64,000 nucleotides of DNA, from contig JAUXPJ010000002.1 in the NCBI GenBank assembly GCA_030683815.1, positions 1 to 64,000 on the forward strand, written 5' to 3'. The DNA comes from Flavobacteriaceae bacterium. GTDB taxonomy: Bacteria; Bacteroidota; Bacteroidia; Flavobacteriales; Flavobacteriaceae. Within the stretch, counting starts at the first letter, position 1; each line of letters begins with the position of its first letter. The notes beneath the pieces are model-generated. The model was not told the origin of the DNA and made no database searches. It saw nothing but the letters and a program-made list of their open reading frames with translations. Shown in pieces: positions 26,277 through 54,870 of the stretch. The position numbers were made by a program, and so were the translations under genes.

Positions 26277-26290
26277 AATTGTTAATTTTT

Positions 26291-26331
26291 AAGGTTCGAA
26301 ACCTTGGTTATTAATTAGGGTGGCAAAGATA
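26291..26331 (-). promoter_or_regulatory. rpsP promoter element and 5-prime leader hairpin
   Basis: TATCTTTG on the minus strand (26331 to 26324) is a perfect TAnnTTTG, 48 nt before the start. The leader contains a 6-bp hairpin AAGGTT-CGA-AACCTT (26291-26305), ending 15 nt before the ATG. Whether the hairpin is regulatory is unknown. Confidence 0.5.
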
Positions 26332-50507: not shown

Positions 50508-51587
50508 TTATTTATTTATTTTTTGTTGATGTTGAATAGATTCTAAGTGAATAGCTTTGAATAATTTATCAATAAACTCTTCACTCAAACCGCGTTTAGT
50601 TCCTGATTTCATCATCTTTTCCATCAATTCATTCCAGCGACTACTTTGTAAAATAGAAACATTCTTTTCTTGTTTAAGCTTACCTATTTGCTCCGCAATA
50701 TCCATTCTCGAAGAAAGTAATTCAATCAAATTTTGATCTAACTGATCTAATTCTTTTCTAAAAATAGTTAATCGATTGATATAATCTGTCTCCTCTAATA
50801 AAGGTTTTTTAACCTTCAATTGTTGCGTGATTTCATTTAAACGGTGCGGTGTTATTTGTTGTGCTGCATCGCTCCATGCTACATTCGGATCAATATGTGT
50901 TTCAATCATAAATCCGTCATAATTCAGATCTAGCCCGGTTTGACAAACATCGAACAACAATTCTCTGTTGCCGCAAATATGAGATGGATCTAATATCATA
51001 GGCAAATCCGGAAACTGTTTGCGTAATTCAATTGCCAAAGGCCATTTGGGTTTATTGCGATACACTTTTTCGTGGTAAGAGGAGAATCCGCGATGTATCA
51101 CTCCTAATTTCTCAATTCCTACCGAATGCAATCGTTCTACCGCTCCCAACCACAAAGGCAAATCGGGATTTACCGGATTTTTAACCAAAATAATTTTATC
51201 AGTCCCTCTAAGGGCTTCTGCTATTTCTTGGACAATAAACGGACTTACCGTTGAACGAGCACCAACCCACAACAAATCAATATCGTGTTGCAGGGCTTGC
51301 TCCACATGGCTGGCATTGGCCACCTCTGTCGCTGTTTTTAATCCGGTTTCTTCCTTCACCCGTTGTAACCACGGCAAACCGATAGCACCAACACCTTCAA
51401 ACTGACCTGGTCGTGTACGTGGTTTCCAAATACCGGCACGAAAAAAAGTAGTATCGGTATCTTTAATTAAATGAGCTGTAGACAGCATTTGCGTCTCGGT
51501 TTCGGCACTACACGGACCTGCAATCACTAACGGATGGGTGAGTTGCAAATCGAGGAGCCATTGTTTAAATAAAATATTGTTTTTCAT
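50508..51587 (-). CDS. Bifunctional DAHP synthase/chorismate mutase
   Basis: A 359-aa fusion. Residues about 1-255 are a KDO8P-synthase-like (type I-beta) DAHP synthase (IAGPCSAET, RAGIWKPRT, ILDPSH). Residues about 265-355 are an AroQ chorismate mutase helix bundle (FRKELDQLDQNLIELLSSRM, IGKLK). It would make the first shikimate intermediate and also prephenate, matching the Phe/Tyr genes upstream in the operon. The fused mutase may act as a feedback sensor, as in related enzymes. Confidence 0.94.
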   Translation of the reverse strand: MKNNILFKQWLLDLQLTHPLVIAGPCSAETETQMLSTAHLIKDTDTTFFRAGIWKPRTRPGQFEGVGAIGLPWLQRVKEETGLKTATEVANASHVEQALQHDIDLLWVGARSTVSPFIVQEIAEALRGTDKIILVKNPVNPDLPLWLGAVERLHSVGIEKLGVIHRGFSSYHEKVYRNKPKWPLAIELRKQFPDLPMILDPSHICGNRELLFDVCQTGLDLNYDGFMIETHIDPNVAWSDAAQQITPHRLNEITQQLKVKKPLLEETDYINRLTIFRKELDQLDQNLIELLSSRMDIAEQIGKLKQEKNVSILQSSRWNELMEKMMKSGTKRGLSEEFIDKLFKAIHLESIQHQQKINK

Positions 51588-51601: not shown

Positions 51602-52471
51602 TTACGGTTCTTGATGGTTTTTTAAAGCAATGCCCGCTAAAATTTCTCCAACGTGATTGCATTGATGCATGATGGCTGTTAATTGCTGTTCATCTTGTTG
51701 CTGAATCAGATTTCTAAACTGTTGTAAGTTATCGATATATTCATCTAAAGATTGAAGTATATGTTGATGATTTTGTAAAAAAATAGGTGCCCAAGTAGGC
51801 GGTGCACTTTTAGCTAATCGAACGGTGGACTCAAAACCACTTCCCGCTAAATTGAAAATTTGTCGCTCATCATGTTCTATCTCCAACACTGTTTTACCCA
51901 ACATAAAACTGCTGATATGTGAAAGATGTGACACATAAGCCAAGTGTTTATCGTGCTCAACCGAGTCCATCAATTGAATTCTGGCACCCAAACTTTTCCA
52001 AAGTTGAATGGTTTTTTCTAATTTTTGCGGACAAGTTAAATGGGGTTCACAAATAATGGTCAATTTTCTTTTGAACAAGTTAGCAATAGCTGCAGTCGGT
52101 CCAGAATACTCAGTTCCCGCAATTGGATGTACTGCCACTAATTGAGTTCGTTTTGGATGATGTGCTATCGCTTTACATAAAGGGTGTTTTATCGATCCCA
52201 TATCAAAAACGATGGTGTTATCAGCTACTCTATTTAAAACTTCAACAGCCAAAGTGGGTAAATGGTTGACAGGTACTGCTAAAATCACCCAAGCTGCTTT
52301 GGAAACTTTTTCGATGGAAACAATCTCATCCAACCATCCCAATTTAAGAGCTTCTTGCTCGTGGCTTTTATCGTGGTCGATTCCCAAAATACGATAGTTT
52401 CCTGTATTTTTTAAATCTTTAGCGATGGATCCTCCCATCAATCCTAATCCTATAATTAAAACATTTTCCAT
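51602..52471 (-). CDS. tyrA: Prephenate dehydrogenase
   Basis: From the ATG at 52469-52471 this is a 289-aa NAD-dependent enzyme converting prephenate to 4-hydroxyphenylpyruvate for tyrosine. The nucleotide motif GLGLMGGS is at the N-terminus and the active-site signature is VAVHPIAGTEYSGP. A longer frame to 52531 overlaps the aminotransferase gene and was rejected. It is the third gene of the operon. Confidence 0.94.
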   Translation of the reverse strand: MENVLIIGLGLMGGSIAKDLKNTGNYRILGIDHDKSHEQEALKLGWLDEIVSIEKVSKAAWVILAVPVNHLPTLAVEVLNRVADNTIVFDMGSIKHPLCKAIAHHPKRTQLVAVHPIAGTEYSGPTAAIANLFKRKLTIICEPHLTCPQKLEKTIQLWKSLGARIQLMDSVEHDKHLAYVSHLSHISSFMLGKTVLEIEHDERQIFNLAGSGFESTVRLAKSAPPTWAPIFLQNHQHILQSLDEYIDNLQQFRNLIQQQDEQQLTAIMHQCNHVGEILAGIALKNHQEP

Positions 52472-52479
52472 ATACTTTT

Positions 52480-53628
52480 TTAAGTTGTTAAACGATGAAT
52501 GACCTCTTTTAAATCGTCTTGGTTGGCGCAAAGTGAAACTCTTATGTACTGTTGACCCGCATTTCCAAATACCATTCCCGGAGTGATAAATACACCAAAA
52601 CGATGCAACAATTCATCAGTAAATTGTTCTCCATCTCCTCCATTAGGGAGCTTTGCCCACACAAACAATCCTGCCGTATTTTTATGGTAACTACATTGTA
52701 GCACATCGAGTAATTTCCAGACCAACAATCGGCGTTCTTTATAAATTTTATTTAAGTTGATAAACCATGAGGTCTCTAACTGCAAAGCGGCAATGGCGCT
52801 GTGTTGAATTCCTAAAAACATGCCGGAATCCATCTGACTTTTCACTTGTAAAATAGCTTCTATATAAGATGCAGCACCCATGACCATTCCAACCCGCATT
52901 CCGGATATATTAAATGTTTTACTCAAAGAGTTTAACTCTAACGCCACTTCATGAGCGCCTGCTACTTGTAAGATACTGTTTGGAGTATCATTTAAAATAA
53001 AACTATACGGATTGTCATTCACAATTAAAATTTGATGTTTTCTGGCAAAATTGACCAATTGTTGCCATTGTAACCGGGTAACGGTAGCTCCCGTAGGCAT
53101 ATGCGGATAGTTTACCCACATCAGTTTTACTTTAGAAAGATCTTGTTGCGCCAAACTTTCCAAATCGGGGAACCATCCATTTGCTTCCGTAAGTTCATAC
53201 ATAGTTGGAATTGCCCCTATCAATTGAGTCACAGAGGTATAAGTTGGATATCCTGGATTTGGAATTAATACCTCATCTCCATCATTTAAAAAAGCCATAC
53301 TGATATGCATAATACCTTCTTTTGAACCCATCAAGGGCAATATTTCTGTCGATGGATTTAAGTCCACTTTAAAATGATGTTGATAAAATTGACTGATAGC
53401 GCTTCTTAATTCAGGGATGCCCTGATACGATTGATATTGTGTTGCATTGGGTAAAACGGTAGCTTTGGTAAGGGCTTTCAACACTTCAGGCGCAGCAGTT
53501 AAATCGGGACTGCCGATTCCTAAATTGATTATCAATTTCCCTGCTGCTTTTAACTGCTGAATTTCTCGTAATTTATGAGAGAAATAATACTCTTGTACGG
53601 ATTGTAATCGGTTGGCTTTTGGAATCAT
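52480..53628 (-). CDS. Aromatic/aspartate-type PLP aminotransferase
   Basis: A 382-aa fold-type I class I aminotransferase with GSPDL, NPGYPTY, the Asn/Asp pair in VNDNPY and the PLP lysine in NSLSKTFNISGMR. Its place between pheA and tyrA implies that it aminates phenylpyruvate and 4-hydroxyphenylpyruvate to Phe and Tyr. It resembles LL-diaminopimelate aminotransferases, so other 2-oxo acids cannot be excluded. Confidence 0.9.
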   Translation of the reverse strand: MIPKANRLQSVQEYYFSHKLREIQQLKAAGKLIINLGIGSPDLTAAPEVLKALTKATVLPNATQYQSYQGIPELRSAISQFYQHHFKVDLNPSTEILPLMGSKEGIMHISMAFLNDGDEVLIPNPGYPTYTSVTQLIGAIPTMYELTEANGWFPDLESLAQQDLSKVKLMWVNYPHMPTGATVTRLQWQQLVNFARKHQILIVNDNPYSFILNDTPNSILQVAGAHEVALELNSLSKTFNISGMRVGMVMGAASYIEAILQVKSQMDSGMFLGIQHSAIAALQLETSWFINLNKIYKERRLLVWKLLDVLQCSYHKNTAGLFVWAKLPNGGDGEQFTDELLHRFGVFITPGMVFGNAGQQYIRVSLCANQDDLKEVIHRLTT

Positions 53629-53741: not shown

Positions 53742-54560
53742 TTATTGGCTTTTGATGTATTCACCTAAGATTTTTAGAGAAGTAGTTTGGGTTTTCATCA
53801 ATTTTAAACAGCTTTTATAAACTTCATAGTCATCAAATTCAACATCAATAAAAAAAGCATATCGAAATGTGGTATTTTTTATGGGCAATGATTGTATTTT
53901 GGTGAGGTTTATTTGATGTGCCGCAAATAACTCCAACACTTTTAACAAACTTCCAACTTCATGAGAAAGTGTCAATTTTAAGGATGCTTTATTGGGGATG
54001 ATAGGATGATTCGGATGATTTAACTGCACTATAAAAAATCGGGTAGTGTTATTTTTAAAAGTGTGGATATCCGAAGCAATCGTTTCCAATCCGTATAAAA
54101 TTCCGGCCATGGAACTGGCAATGGCTCCCACTTTAGATAGGTTTTCGCGGGATATTTTTAAAGCAGATTCAGCAGTATCTTTAGATTCTACCAAGGTGAT
54201 GTGCGGATATTGTTCAAAAAAATCTTCACATTGCTGTAAAGCCATCGGATGAGAATGTACTTCTTTGATATCGGCAATGGTCTGACCTTTAAGTGCTAAT
54301 AATTGGTGGCGGATTGGTAAAAAAACTTCGCCGACTATCTGTAAATGATGCTCATCTATTAATTTATAATTGGGTAATAACGAACCGGCAATGGAATTTT
54401 CAATAGCCATCACTGCCGATGTTACTTGTTTTTGTTTGAGTAAGTGAGGAATTTCAGCAAAGGTCAAACACTCTTCTAACAGTATGTTATTTCCATAGTA
54501 CTGATTGGCAACTTGGTGGTGAAAAGATCCTTTAATTCCTTGTATGGCGACTTTGTTCAT
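53742..54560 (-). CDS. pheA: Prephenate dehydratase
   Basis: A 272-aa monofunctional enzyme making phenylpyruvate. The catalytic domain covers about 1-180 and contains the Thr-Arg-Phe motif (NNTTRFFIV); an ACT domain follows (about 190-270). The usual Phe-binding ACT motifs (GALV and ESRP) read GSLL and QSLP here, so allosteric Phe inhibition may differ. It is the first gene of the Phe/Tyr operon and lies directly behind a leader-peptide attenuator with its own promoter. Confidence 0.94.
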   Translation of the reverse strand: MNKVAIQGIKGSFHHQVANQYYGNNILLEECLTFAEIPHLLKQKQVTSAVMAIENSIAGSLLPNYKLIDEHHLQIVGEVFLPIRHQLLALKGQTIADIKEVHSHPMALQQCEDFFEQYPHITLVESKDTAESALKISRENLSKVGAIASSMAGILYGLETIASDIHTFKNNTTRFFIVQLNHPNHPIIPNKASLKLTLSHEVGSLLKVLELFAAHQINLTKIQSLPIKNTTFRYAFFIDVEFDDYEVYKSCLKLMKTQTTSLKILGEYIKSQ

Positions 54561-54572
54561 AAAATATTACAT

Positions 54573-54598
54573 AAAAAAAAGTCCCGATTGCTCGAGAC
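54573..54598 (-). terminator. Conditional terminator of the pheA attenuator
   Basis: GTCTCGA/TCGGGAC pair with one G-T wobble around GCAA, followed by eight T on the minus strand. It lies 13 nt before the pheA start, so it must be bypassed for operon expression. Confidence 0.88.
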
Positions 54599-54649
54599 CT
54601 CATGGTTTATAAAACTTTTTTATCGTTTACAACAACCCATAACGTCTCG
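54573..54649 (-). promoter_or_regulatory. Phe/Tyr transcription attenuator: antiterminator and terminator upstream of pheA
   Basis: In minus-strand RNA order, arm 1 CGAGAC-GUU-AUGGGUU (54649 to 54634, inside the leader ORF) can pair with arm 2 AACCAU-GAG-GUCUCG (54607 to 54593). The GUCUCGA part of arm 2 can instead pair with UCGGGAC (54587 to 54581), forming a 7-bp terminator with loop GCAA and a U8 tail (54580 to 54573). The two folds exclude each other. A ribosome stalled on the upstream Phe/Tyr codons would leave arm 1 free for antitermination. One that reaches the stop codon would cover arm 1 and allow termination. The pairing is read directly; the control is inferred. Confidence 0.85.
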
Positions 54650-54707
54650 CTTTTATACTAAAATAAAAGTAAAAATAGAAACTGTTATAAGTGTTGATGT
54701 TGTTCAT
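54627..54707 (-). CDS. Phe/Tyr-rich attenuator leader peptide
   Basis: A 26-codon ORF on the minus strand, ATG at 54705-54707 and TAA at 54627-54629. Residues 10-16 read Phe-Tyr-Phe-Tyr-Phe-Tyr-Phe. Tyr also occurs at 7 and 23, making nine aromatic codons in 26. The 3-prime end of the ORF encodes arm 1 of the antiterminator. It starts about 13 nt after the predicted transcription start. The aromatic run, the position before a Phe/Tyr biosynthetic operon and the overlapping RNA switch together argue strongly for a regulatory leader peptide with no other function. Confidence 0.85.
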   Translation of the reverse strand: MNNINTYNSFYFYFYFSIKARRYGLL

Positions 54708-54725
54708 CTTGTTGTTCTTATTCCG

Positions 54726-54755
54726 CAAAACTAAACATTTATTTTTAATGTGCAA
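54726..54755 (-). promoter_or_regulatory. Consensus promoter of the pheA-tyrA operon
   Basis: On the minus strand TTG (54755 to 54753), exactly 19 nt, then TAGTTTTG (54733 to 54726) match the Bacteroidota TTG-N19-TAnnTTTG consensus. Transcription would begin near 54720, just before the leader ORF. Confidence 0.8.
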
Positions 54756-54843
54756 GTATCGGCGTTAAAAGTTTAATGTTTAAAGTTTAACGAATAACTA
54801 CACCACTTTACAAACTTTCAACTTTACAACTTTACAAACTAAT

Positions 54844-54870
54844 AATCTTTCAATCTTTCAATCTTTCAAT
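54844..54870. repeat. Tandem AATCTTTC repeat
   Basis: Three perfect copies of the 8-mer AATCTTTC plus a partial fourth. They lie in low-complexity DNA between the Phe/Tyr operon promoter and the CpsB-like gene, and they could vary in copy number between strains. Confidence 0.7.

Follow-up and report, generated by a model that had tools for sequence, protein, structure and literature searches.

Is the short aromatic open reading frame (ORF) that precedes pheA in a Flavobacteriaceae genome the sensor of a transcriptional attenuator, and if so, which amino acids does it read and how would a translating ribosome convey that reading to RNA polymerase? The locus lies in a 64,000-nt stretch of Flavobacteriaceae bacterium contig JAUXPJ010000002.1 (hereafter the window), where all features of the leader are on the minus strand. 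The promoter, which we take to be of the Bacteroidota primary-sigma type, occupies 54726–54755, with TTG at 54755–54753, a spacer of N19 and TAGTTTTG at 54733–54726. Downstream of it a 26-codon ORF without a Shine-Dalgarno (SD) sequence (54627–54707) encodes MNNINTYNSFYFYFYFSIKARRYGLL ahead of its stop codon, and the putative regulatory codons 10–16 (54660–54680) read Phe-Tyr-Phe-Tyr-Phe-Tyr-Phe (FYFYFYF). The 3′ end of the ORF contains arm 1 (segment 2; 54634–54649), composed of CGAGAC (54649–54644) and AUGGGUU (54640–54634), and is followed by arm 2 (segment 3; 54592–54607), composed of AACCAU (54607–54602) and GUCUCGA (54598–54592). Arm 2 has two alternative partners, since with arm 1 it forms an antiterminator and with arm 3 an intrinsic terminator (3:4; 54573–54598). 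The latter reads GUCUCGA-gcaa-UCGGGAC (54598–54581) followed by U8 (54580–54573), and its 7-bp stem pairs 54598–54592 with 54587–54581 around a GCAA loop; the minimum free energy (MFE) structure extends it by three pairs (54601–54599 with 54580–54578). A preliminary description of this DNA had placed the minus-strand promoter, the 26-codon ORF, the codon run, the arms and the terminator exactly where we find them, to the base. It had also set the terminator 13 nt before pheA; the terminator is where it was said to be, and the distance from the U run to the pheA ATG at 54560 is 12 nt. A fourth arm escaped that description: segment 1, codons 6–10 (54678–54692), which lies just 5′ of and at the beginning of the Phe/Tyr run, is by MFE predicted to pair with arm 1 as long as the RNA carries no ribosome (the anti-antiterminator, 1:2) and completes the 1:2, 2:3, 3:4 set.

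The Pfam and NCBIfam domains of the downstream genes agree in gene content with the name pheA-tyrA operon that had been given to this locus. The presumed first gene, pheA (53742–54560, minus strand), encodes a prephenate dehydratase (Pfam PDT, E=1.9e-54) with an ACT domain that in the window's PheA falls slightly under the Pfam cut-off (25.8 vs 27 bits). Behind it on the same strand lie a class I/II aminotransferase gene (52480–53628; Pfam Aminotran_1_2, E=1.3e-56), the prephenate dehydrogenase gene tyrA (51602–52531; Pfam PDH_N and PDH_C, with NCBIfam PRK08507 above its cut-off) and a DAHP synthase-chorismate mutase fusion gene (50508–51587; Pfam DAHP_synth_1 and CM_2), after which rsgA comes next. 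The tyrA ORF as listed opens with TTG and overlaps the aminotransferase gene, and its true start is probably internal to the listed ORF.

Searches with PheA gave a match in 43 of the 60 relatives' genomes and in 185 of 199 in the family, 199 loci together. We examined 117 of these 199 loci, drawn from those ranked highest by similarity (57 in one set and 60 fetched), of which 114 belong to the window's family and three to two other families of the order. A mixed Phe+Tyr leader ORF with a terminator stands at 116 of the 117 pheA loci. At 113 of them it starts with ATG, contains at least four Phe/Tyr codons in seven and lies no more than 350 nt upstream; at L075, where an ATG ORF was discounted by eye as a chance ORF, the leader counted is one that starts with GTG, and at L026 and L098 the leader is further upstream of pheA, with a hairpin and T run visible. 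No accepted leader was found at the one other locus of the 117, L021. Both Phe and Tyr occur within the densest seven codons of every one of the 113 leaders, and Trp occurs somewhere in 75 of the 113. At L026, and also at a locus from the named genomes described below (L309), hairpin-bearing repeat units of the CCCGCC-GGCGGG type, which share a GTTCGAAGAACGAAATAAAAT stretch, lie between the attenuator terminator and pheA and separate the attenuator from the gene by ~400–500 nt.

The pairing elements were compared across 114 leaders. All 114 have a perfect stem of at least 6 bp ahead of the T run, as judged by sequence with no separate chance control, and the T run itself reaches at least six in 111; on the same footing, an intrinsic terminator lies between the leader ORF and the first structural gene in all 114. 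The fitted arm 1 matches the 5′ arm of the terminator with at least 5 bp in 111 of the 114 leaders, and its pairing beats the leader's own shuffles at 0.05 in 90 and is not significant in 24. For the covariation test, arm 1 was taken from a fixed interval and the terminator arm 2 was located independently in 107 distinct leaders. Complementarity between arm 1 and arm 2 averaged 16.84 for true partners vs 13.74 (sd 0.243) for permuted ones, and 0 of 500 permutations were as high; because permutation leaves shared ancestry in, the effect size is more telling here than the permutation count. Examined by column, one antiterminator pair is A-U in 63 leaders, G-C in 46 and G-U in 5, with changes on both sides, and the terminator pair that uses the same arm 2 column is C-G in 46, U-G in 36 and U-A in 32. 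The duplex between segment 1 and arm 1 has a mean energy of -12.78 kcal/mol for true partners vs -9.16 kcal/mol (sd 0.24) for permuted ones, none of 200 permutations being as strong, and -7.56 kcal/mol with shuffled letters (114 leaders). On this comparative evidence, the leader has the full classical 1:2, 2:3, 3:4 design of three mutually exclusive pairings that covary.

The position of the aromatic codons relative to these arms is also constrained. From the first base of the last dense Phe/Tyr codon to the fitted arm 1 the distance is 12–15 nt in 104 of the 114 leaders, vs 8.6% in shuffled sequence, and in the window arm 1 begins 13 nt from the first base of codon 16. The leading edge of a ribosome reaches ~12–14 nt beyond the first base of its A-site codon. 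Stalled at the last aromatic codon, a ribosome would thus just expose arm 1, and with a footprint of this size one that had moved a step further would begin to cover it. Arm 1 begins from 28 nt before to 5 nt after the ORF end in all 114 leaders, and with the ORF end this close to the start of arm 1 (5 nt before to 28 nt after it) a terminating ribosome would cover the arm.

The leaders were also folded in each of the states that a ribosome could impose. The 148-nt leader RNA of the window has an energy of -34.9 kcal/mol (z = -4.33; 0 of 200 shuffles were as stable), and in its MFE structure codons 6–10 are paired with arm 1 and the terminator is formed. Across the 114 leaders folded at 37 °C, the structure without a ribosome contains the terminator in 113 and has arm 1 paired upstream (at least 4 nt) in 96. 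Because codons 6–10 pair with arm 1 in the ribosome's absence, the predicted default for an untranslated leader is termination, which is also the default of the E. coli trp leader without translation. With the ribosome at the stop codon, the terminator is formed in all 114 leaders. When the ribosome is stalled at the last aromatic codon and the whole leader has been made, 21 of the 114 fold to the antiterminator and 93 to the terminator, which at full length with the upstream RNA masked is favoured by a median of 3.1 kcal/mol; the window's own leader favours the antiterminator at full length (-21.6 vs -18.5). The apparent counter-evidence of this equilibrium fold is resolved by folding the stalled leader before arm 3 exists, as the transcript that ends ahead of arm 3 has the arm 1:arm 2 pairing in its best fold in 112 of the 114 leaders, and an antiterminator of 4 bp could not be found even at this stage in the other two (L004 and L103). 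Since 93 of the 114 leaders fold to the terminator despite a stalled ribosome, antitermination in most relatives must be kinetic, and under this folding model the choice must be made before arm 3 has cleared RNA polymerase.

We consider it highly probable, from the comparison of these leaders, that the element is a classical four-segment ribosome-mediated attenuator that senses how far tRNA-Phe and tRNA-Tyr are charged and governs the pheA-aminotransferase-tyrA-DAHP synthase/chorismate mutase operon. In the putative mechanism, codons 6–10 would mask arm 1 when no ribosome is present, the terminator would form and the operon would be off. Unhindered translation as far as the stop codon would place the ribosome over arm 1, so that the terminator would again form and expression would remain off. 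Were the ribosome slowed at a codon for Phe or Tyr, it would open segment 1 and leave arm 1 free, whereupon arm 1 would capture arm 2 ahead of the synthesis of arm 3 and RNA polymerase would read on. The preliminary description had already interpreted the leader as an attenuator and as an AND/OR sensor of the two amino acids. Its interpretation is supported by the comparison of relatives, in which the aromatic run recurs (116/117 pheA loci) and the alternative arm 1–arm 2 pairing covaries (no permutation of the 500 reached the observed mean); as for the sensing, a stall on either kind of codon would free arm 1, so a shortage of Phe or of Tyr should each give read-through and raise expression.

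Five Flavobacterium loci (L254, L264, L269, L287 and L298) have no tyrA between the aminotransferase and DAHP synthase genes, and their leaders keep their Tyr codons, with a mean of 3.2 vs 3.1 in 71 loci with tyrA; a tie between Tyr codons and tyrA is thus unsupported. PDH_C was not found in the five tyrA-less genomes (0/5, with completeness not given) and is present in the comparison genome. A match to a biopterin-dependent aromatic hydroxylase occurs in all five tyrA-less genomes and also in the tyrA-bearing comparison genome, and none occurs in the window's genome. Such a hydroxylase could make Tyr from Phe in the tyrA-less genomes, an observation made non-discriminating by its presence in the comparison genome, and RNA structure or descent may instead have kept the Tyr codons of these leaders. 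One column of the leader alignment holds Tyr in 59 leaders, Trp in 36 and Phe in 15. The Trp codons may be true sensors or may be held in place by RNA structure, since they lie in or near segment 1, the partner of arm 1.

Leaders with other amino acids occur in the same genome. In the window's genome the leader MNLTQLHHHLSHNCSQAIWK precedes hisG (L190, G000:C19 near 119321–119785, minus strand), and a His-rich leader ORF of the LHHHH type was present at 15 of the 18 hisG loci examined (among L188–L205), with a hairpin and T run visible and terminators unscored. Upstream of a trpE-like gene in the window's genome (L238, G000:C23) stands MRNFLQNNAWWWFTLSRKRFSK, a WWW leader. ORFs with WW or WWW were found at 6 of 25 chorismate-binding loci (L231, L238, L242, L243, L245 and L246), where terminators are likewise unscored and many of the 25 are probably not trpE. 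Leaders at ilvD, for example at L210 and L212, are candidates only, and the window's genome has no ilvD match. A search of the window's own genome for six Phe/Tyr codons in a row returned 41 matches vs 82 in the backward control, which is no excess.

Three other explanations of the locus have to be weighed against ribosome-mediated attenuation. AT-rich DNA easily reads as Phe and Tyr, and the run might be a chance stretch of this kind beside an ordinary terminator: an ORF with at least four of seven Phe/Tyr codons is present in 114 of the 117 upstream regions, and also in 10 of the 117 reverse complements and in 10.6% of shuffles. With the threshold at five of seven codons and both kinds required, such an ORF lies upstream of pheA at 109 of the 117 loci; one reverse complement of the 117 contains it, as do 2.0% of the 2340 dinucleotide shuffles. 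Given these controls, the recurrence of the leader at 116 of 117 loci, the covariation of the arms and their fixed spacing from the codons, we reject the chance ORF, which retains hardly any likelihood. The runs contain 685 TTN/TAN codons, and every one has T or C in third position, with no Leu or stop codons among them, a figure somewhat biased by the selection of the runs on Phe/Tyr content; because of this pyrimidine third base we conclude that, as far as codon usage can tell, the leader runs are coding and go beyond mere U-richness.

A coding run could still be incidental if a non-ribosomal cis-element, such as a T-box, a riboswitch or a protein-bound attenuator, governed the terminator, and a structured 5′ element with a terminator would exist whichever the sensor. 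Over the window's leader, however, no Rfam family reaches its gathering score, the best sub-threshold match being RF01859 Phe_leader at 25.9 bits vs a gathering score of 55, and among 20 relatives compared with Rfam at E 0.5 none had a match at gathering, with RF01859 scoring 31.4 and 35 bits in two of the 20. No T-box family was matched at E up to 10 in positions 54500–54850 of the window. The conserved ORF frame, start context, Phe/Tyr codons and codon-to-arm distance would moreover be needless for such an element, and we judge it very improbable. The remaining alternative keeps the ribosome and changes what it senses: the nascent aromatic peptide might itself arrest the ribosome in the manner of the arrest peptide TnaC, perhaps in response to a free aromatic amino acid and not to tRNA charging. 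A ribosome stalled in this way would work the identical RNA switch, and aromatic residues are indeed conserved in the leaders. Against this, Phe and Tyr exchange freely within the run (Y 69 and F 45 in one column, F 77 and Y 35 in another) and the run itself varies (FYFYFYF, FYFFF, FFFYFFF and others). The residues after the run track the sequence of the RNA arm, with GAGAC or GGGAC translated as -ETL or -TGL and no single peptide motif, and the His and Trp leaders each bear the amino acid of their own operon. An arrest peptide therefore seems to us very unlikely, and we retain attenuation by tRNA charging as the explanation of the locus.

A relaxed promoter, TTG-N17-21-TAnn(n)TTWG, lies ahead of the leader ORF in 83 of the 114 leaders, a motif count that has no chance control, and the TA box alone is found in 108 of the 114, mostly 18 or 24–27 nt 5′ of the start codon. 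Among the 114 leader starts, 79% have A at -3 and 61% have it at -6, each vs 37% background, with no enrichment at -13 (24% vs 37% background), and an SD-like motif is seen in 3. Part of a study of initiation in F. johnsoniae names A at -3, -6, -12 and -13 as positive determinants (PMC6847099). These sequence features assign the leader start to the SD-less type of Bacteroidota. If the attenuator operates as proposed, bacteria largely without SD initiation would depend on a fast first ribosome that paces RNA polymerase, and transcription-translation coupling in Bacteroidota could be probed at a conserved reporter provided by nature, in a species as amenable to laboratory work as F. johnsoniae.

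The distribution of the leader extends well outside the window's family. Elsewhere in the order, it is present in families f2 (2/2 loci), f3 (1/1), f9 (3/3) and f15 (3/3). No accepted leader was found at the 12 loci of family f5, where pheA is mostly divergent, at the single locus of f12, where none with a terminator lies within 6.5 kb upstream, or at the three loci of f16, which come from 0.6-Mb genomes and show loose ORFs. These f16 ORFs (L147, L148 and L149), together with those at L150 and L158 (f5) and L176 (f26), were discounted by eye as leaders, having no terminator after them or lying far off. The ATG ORF at L149 (MNRTPYYYYFF..., 6/7 Phe/Tyr) stands 100 nt upstream of pheA and has no T run; it may be what remains of a leader after genome reduction.

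In the class outside the order, 25 of 37 matches were examined, with terminators judged by eye, and 20 of the 25 loci have a leader, 18 directly upstream of pheA and two (L162 and L164) before the first gene of an operon ordered DAHP synthase-aroB-aroA-pheA, whose aroB and aroA labels were read from ORF starts. The other five (four in f26 and one in f36) showed no leader in the 6.5 kb scanned upstream. Among named genomes, which are partly the same as those of the 117 loci, the best 80 of 581 confirmed pheA loci all have a leader ORF, 77 of them directly upstream, one displaced and two at an operon head; at L309 the leader lies ~540 nt upstream of pheA. In Cyclobacteriaceae bacterium YHN15 (L278) and Cecembia rubra (L292) the leader heads a rearranged operon, and at L292 a nearer ORF was discounted by eye as a chance ORF, the true leader being the one at the operon head. 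At four loci of Cyclobacteriaceae and family f29 (L278, L292, L408 and L409) DAHP synthase comes first and pheA later, with the Phe/Tyr leader before the first gene. In other classes of the phylum, for which ~1.5 kb upstream was scanned, a leader is present at 4 of the 20 loci fetched (L358, L360, L362 and L364), and the pheA genes of exactly these four reach 341 bits or more against the Bacteroidia alignment, the next highest fetched being 270. Because among these 20 loci only Bacteroidia-like pheA carry the leader, the comparison suggests joint transfer or joint inheritance of the aromatic operon and its attenuator. A wider hypothesis is that the leader is a pan-aromatic sensor (of Phe, Tyr and in many lineages Trp) that goes with the operon and not with pheA as such, and is an old, transferable attenuator that shows ribosomes closely following RNA polymerase in SD-less Bacteroidota; we offer this only tentatively, as a possibility that we would sooner doubt than expect.

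In the classical attenuation scheme, as set out in part of one account (PMC1183508), a leader has a run of codons for its own amino acid, segments that pair as 1:2, 2:3 and 3:4, a terminator and a stop codon near segment 2. Like the E. coli pheA, trp and his leaders, the present one is a short ORF with codons for the operon's amino acids, has the three pairings and a terminator ahead of the first gene, and in the window has its stop codon close enough to segment 2 for a ribosome there to reach it. The leader sequences thus combine a cluster of product codons, a terminator, a covarying 2:3 pairing, a 1:2 hairpin and the spacing for stall and stop. The E. coli pheA leader codes for Phe alone, whereas every leader scored here mixes Phe and Tyr and many include Trp. 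Further differences from E. coli are that the leaders start mostly without an SD sequence and with A at -3, that the promoter is of a different type and that the operon comprises pheA, the aminotransferase gene, tyrA and DAHP synthase. Leaders of the E. coli ilvGMEDA type are multivalent, covering several amino acids of one pathway; the present leader resembles them in this respect and differs in that it is aromatic, not branched-chain, and belongs to another phylum.

The closest precedent that we found is in the 2021 transcriptome of F. psychrophilum, parts of which report a structured 5′ element at pheA that is kept in other Flavobacteriaceae and has no Rfam match, a structured 5′ element upstream of hisG, and strong indications that leader peptides attenuate amino-acid operons (PMC9723704). 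The pheA element is like ours in gene and family, and those parts of the account give no codon content, arms, spacing, covariation or range beyond Flavobacteriaceae (PMC9723704). Sections of a B. thetaiotaomicron map likewise describe small ORFs in long 5′ UTRs that are reminiscent of attenuation leaders (PMC7366714). No description of a mixed Phe/Tyr leader was found in the open literature searched. The kind of mechanism is old and classical, and the pheA leader here is a variant of it; what is new, by comparison of sequences, is the mixture of aromatic codons in one leader, a four-arm switch with covarying pairings, the occurrence over a wider range, and the presence of His and Trp leaders alongside it in the window's genome. 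Across the loci compared, the attenuator appears to be a real and widespread form of a classical bacterial switch. If so, it would propose a regulatory logic for Phe and Tyr synthesis in much of the class, with the sister leaders for His, Trp and perhaps Ile/Val available for comparison.

Two minor features of the window lie outside the leader. Upstream of the leader promoter is a short tandem repeat of TTGAAAGA units (~54869–54844, minus strand). An Rfam match to the S16-Flavobacteria ribosomal protein leader lies at 26281–26315 on the minus strand, with 36.5 bits vs a gathering score of 35.7.
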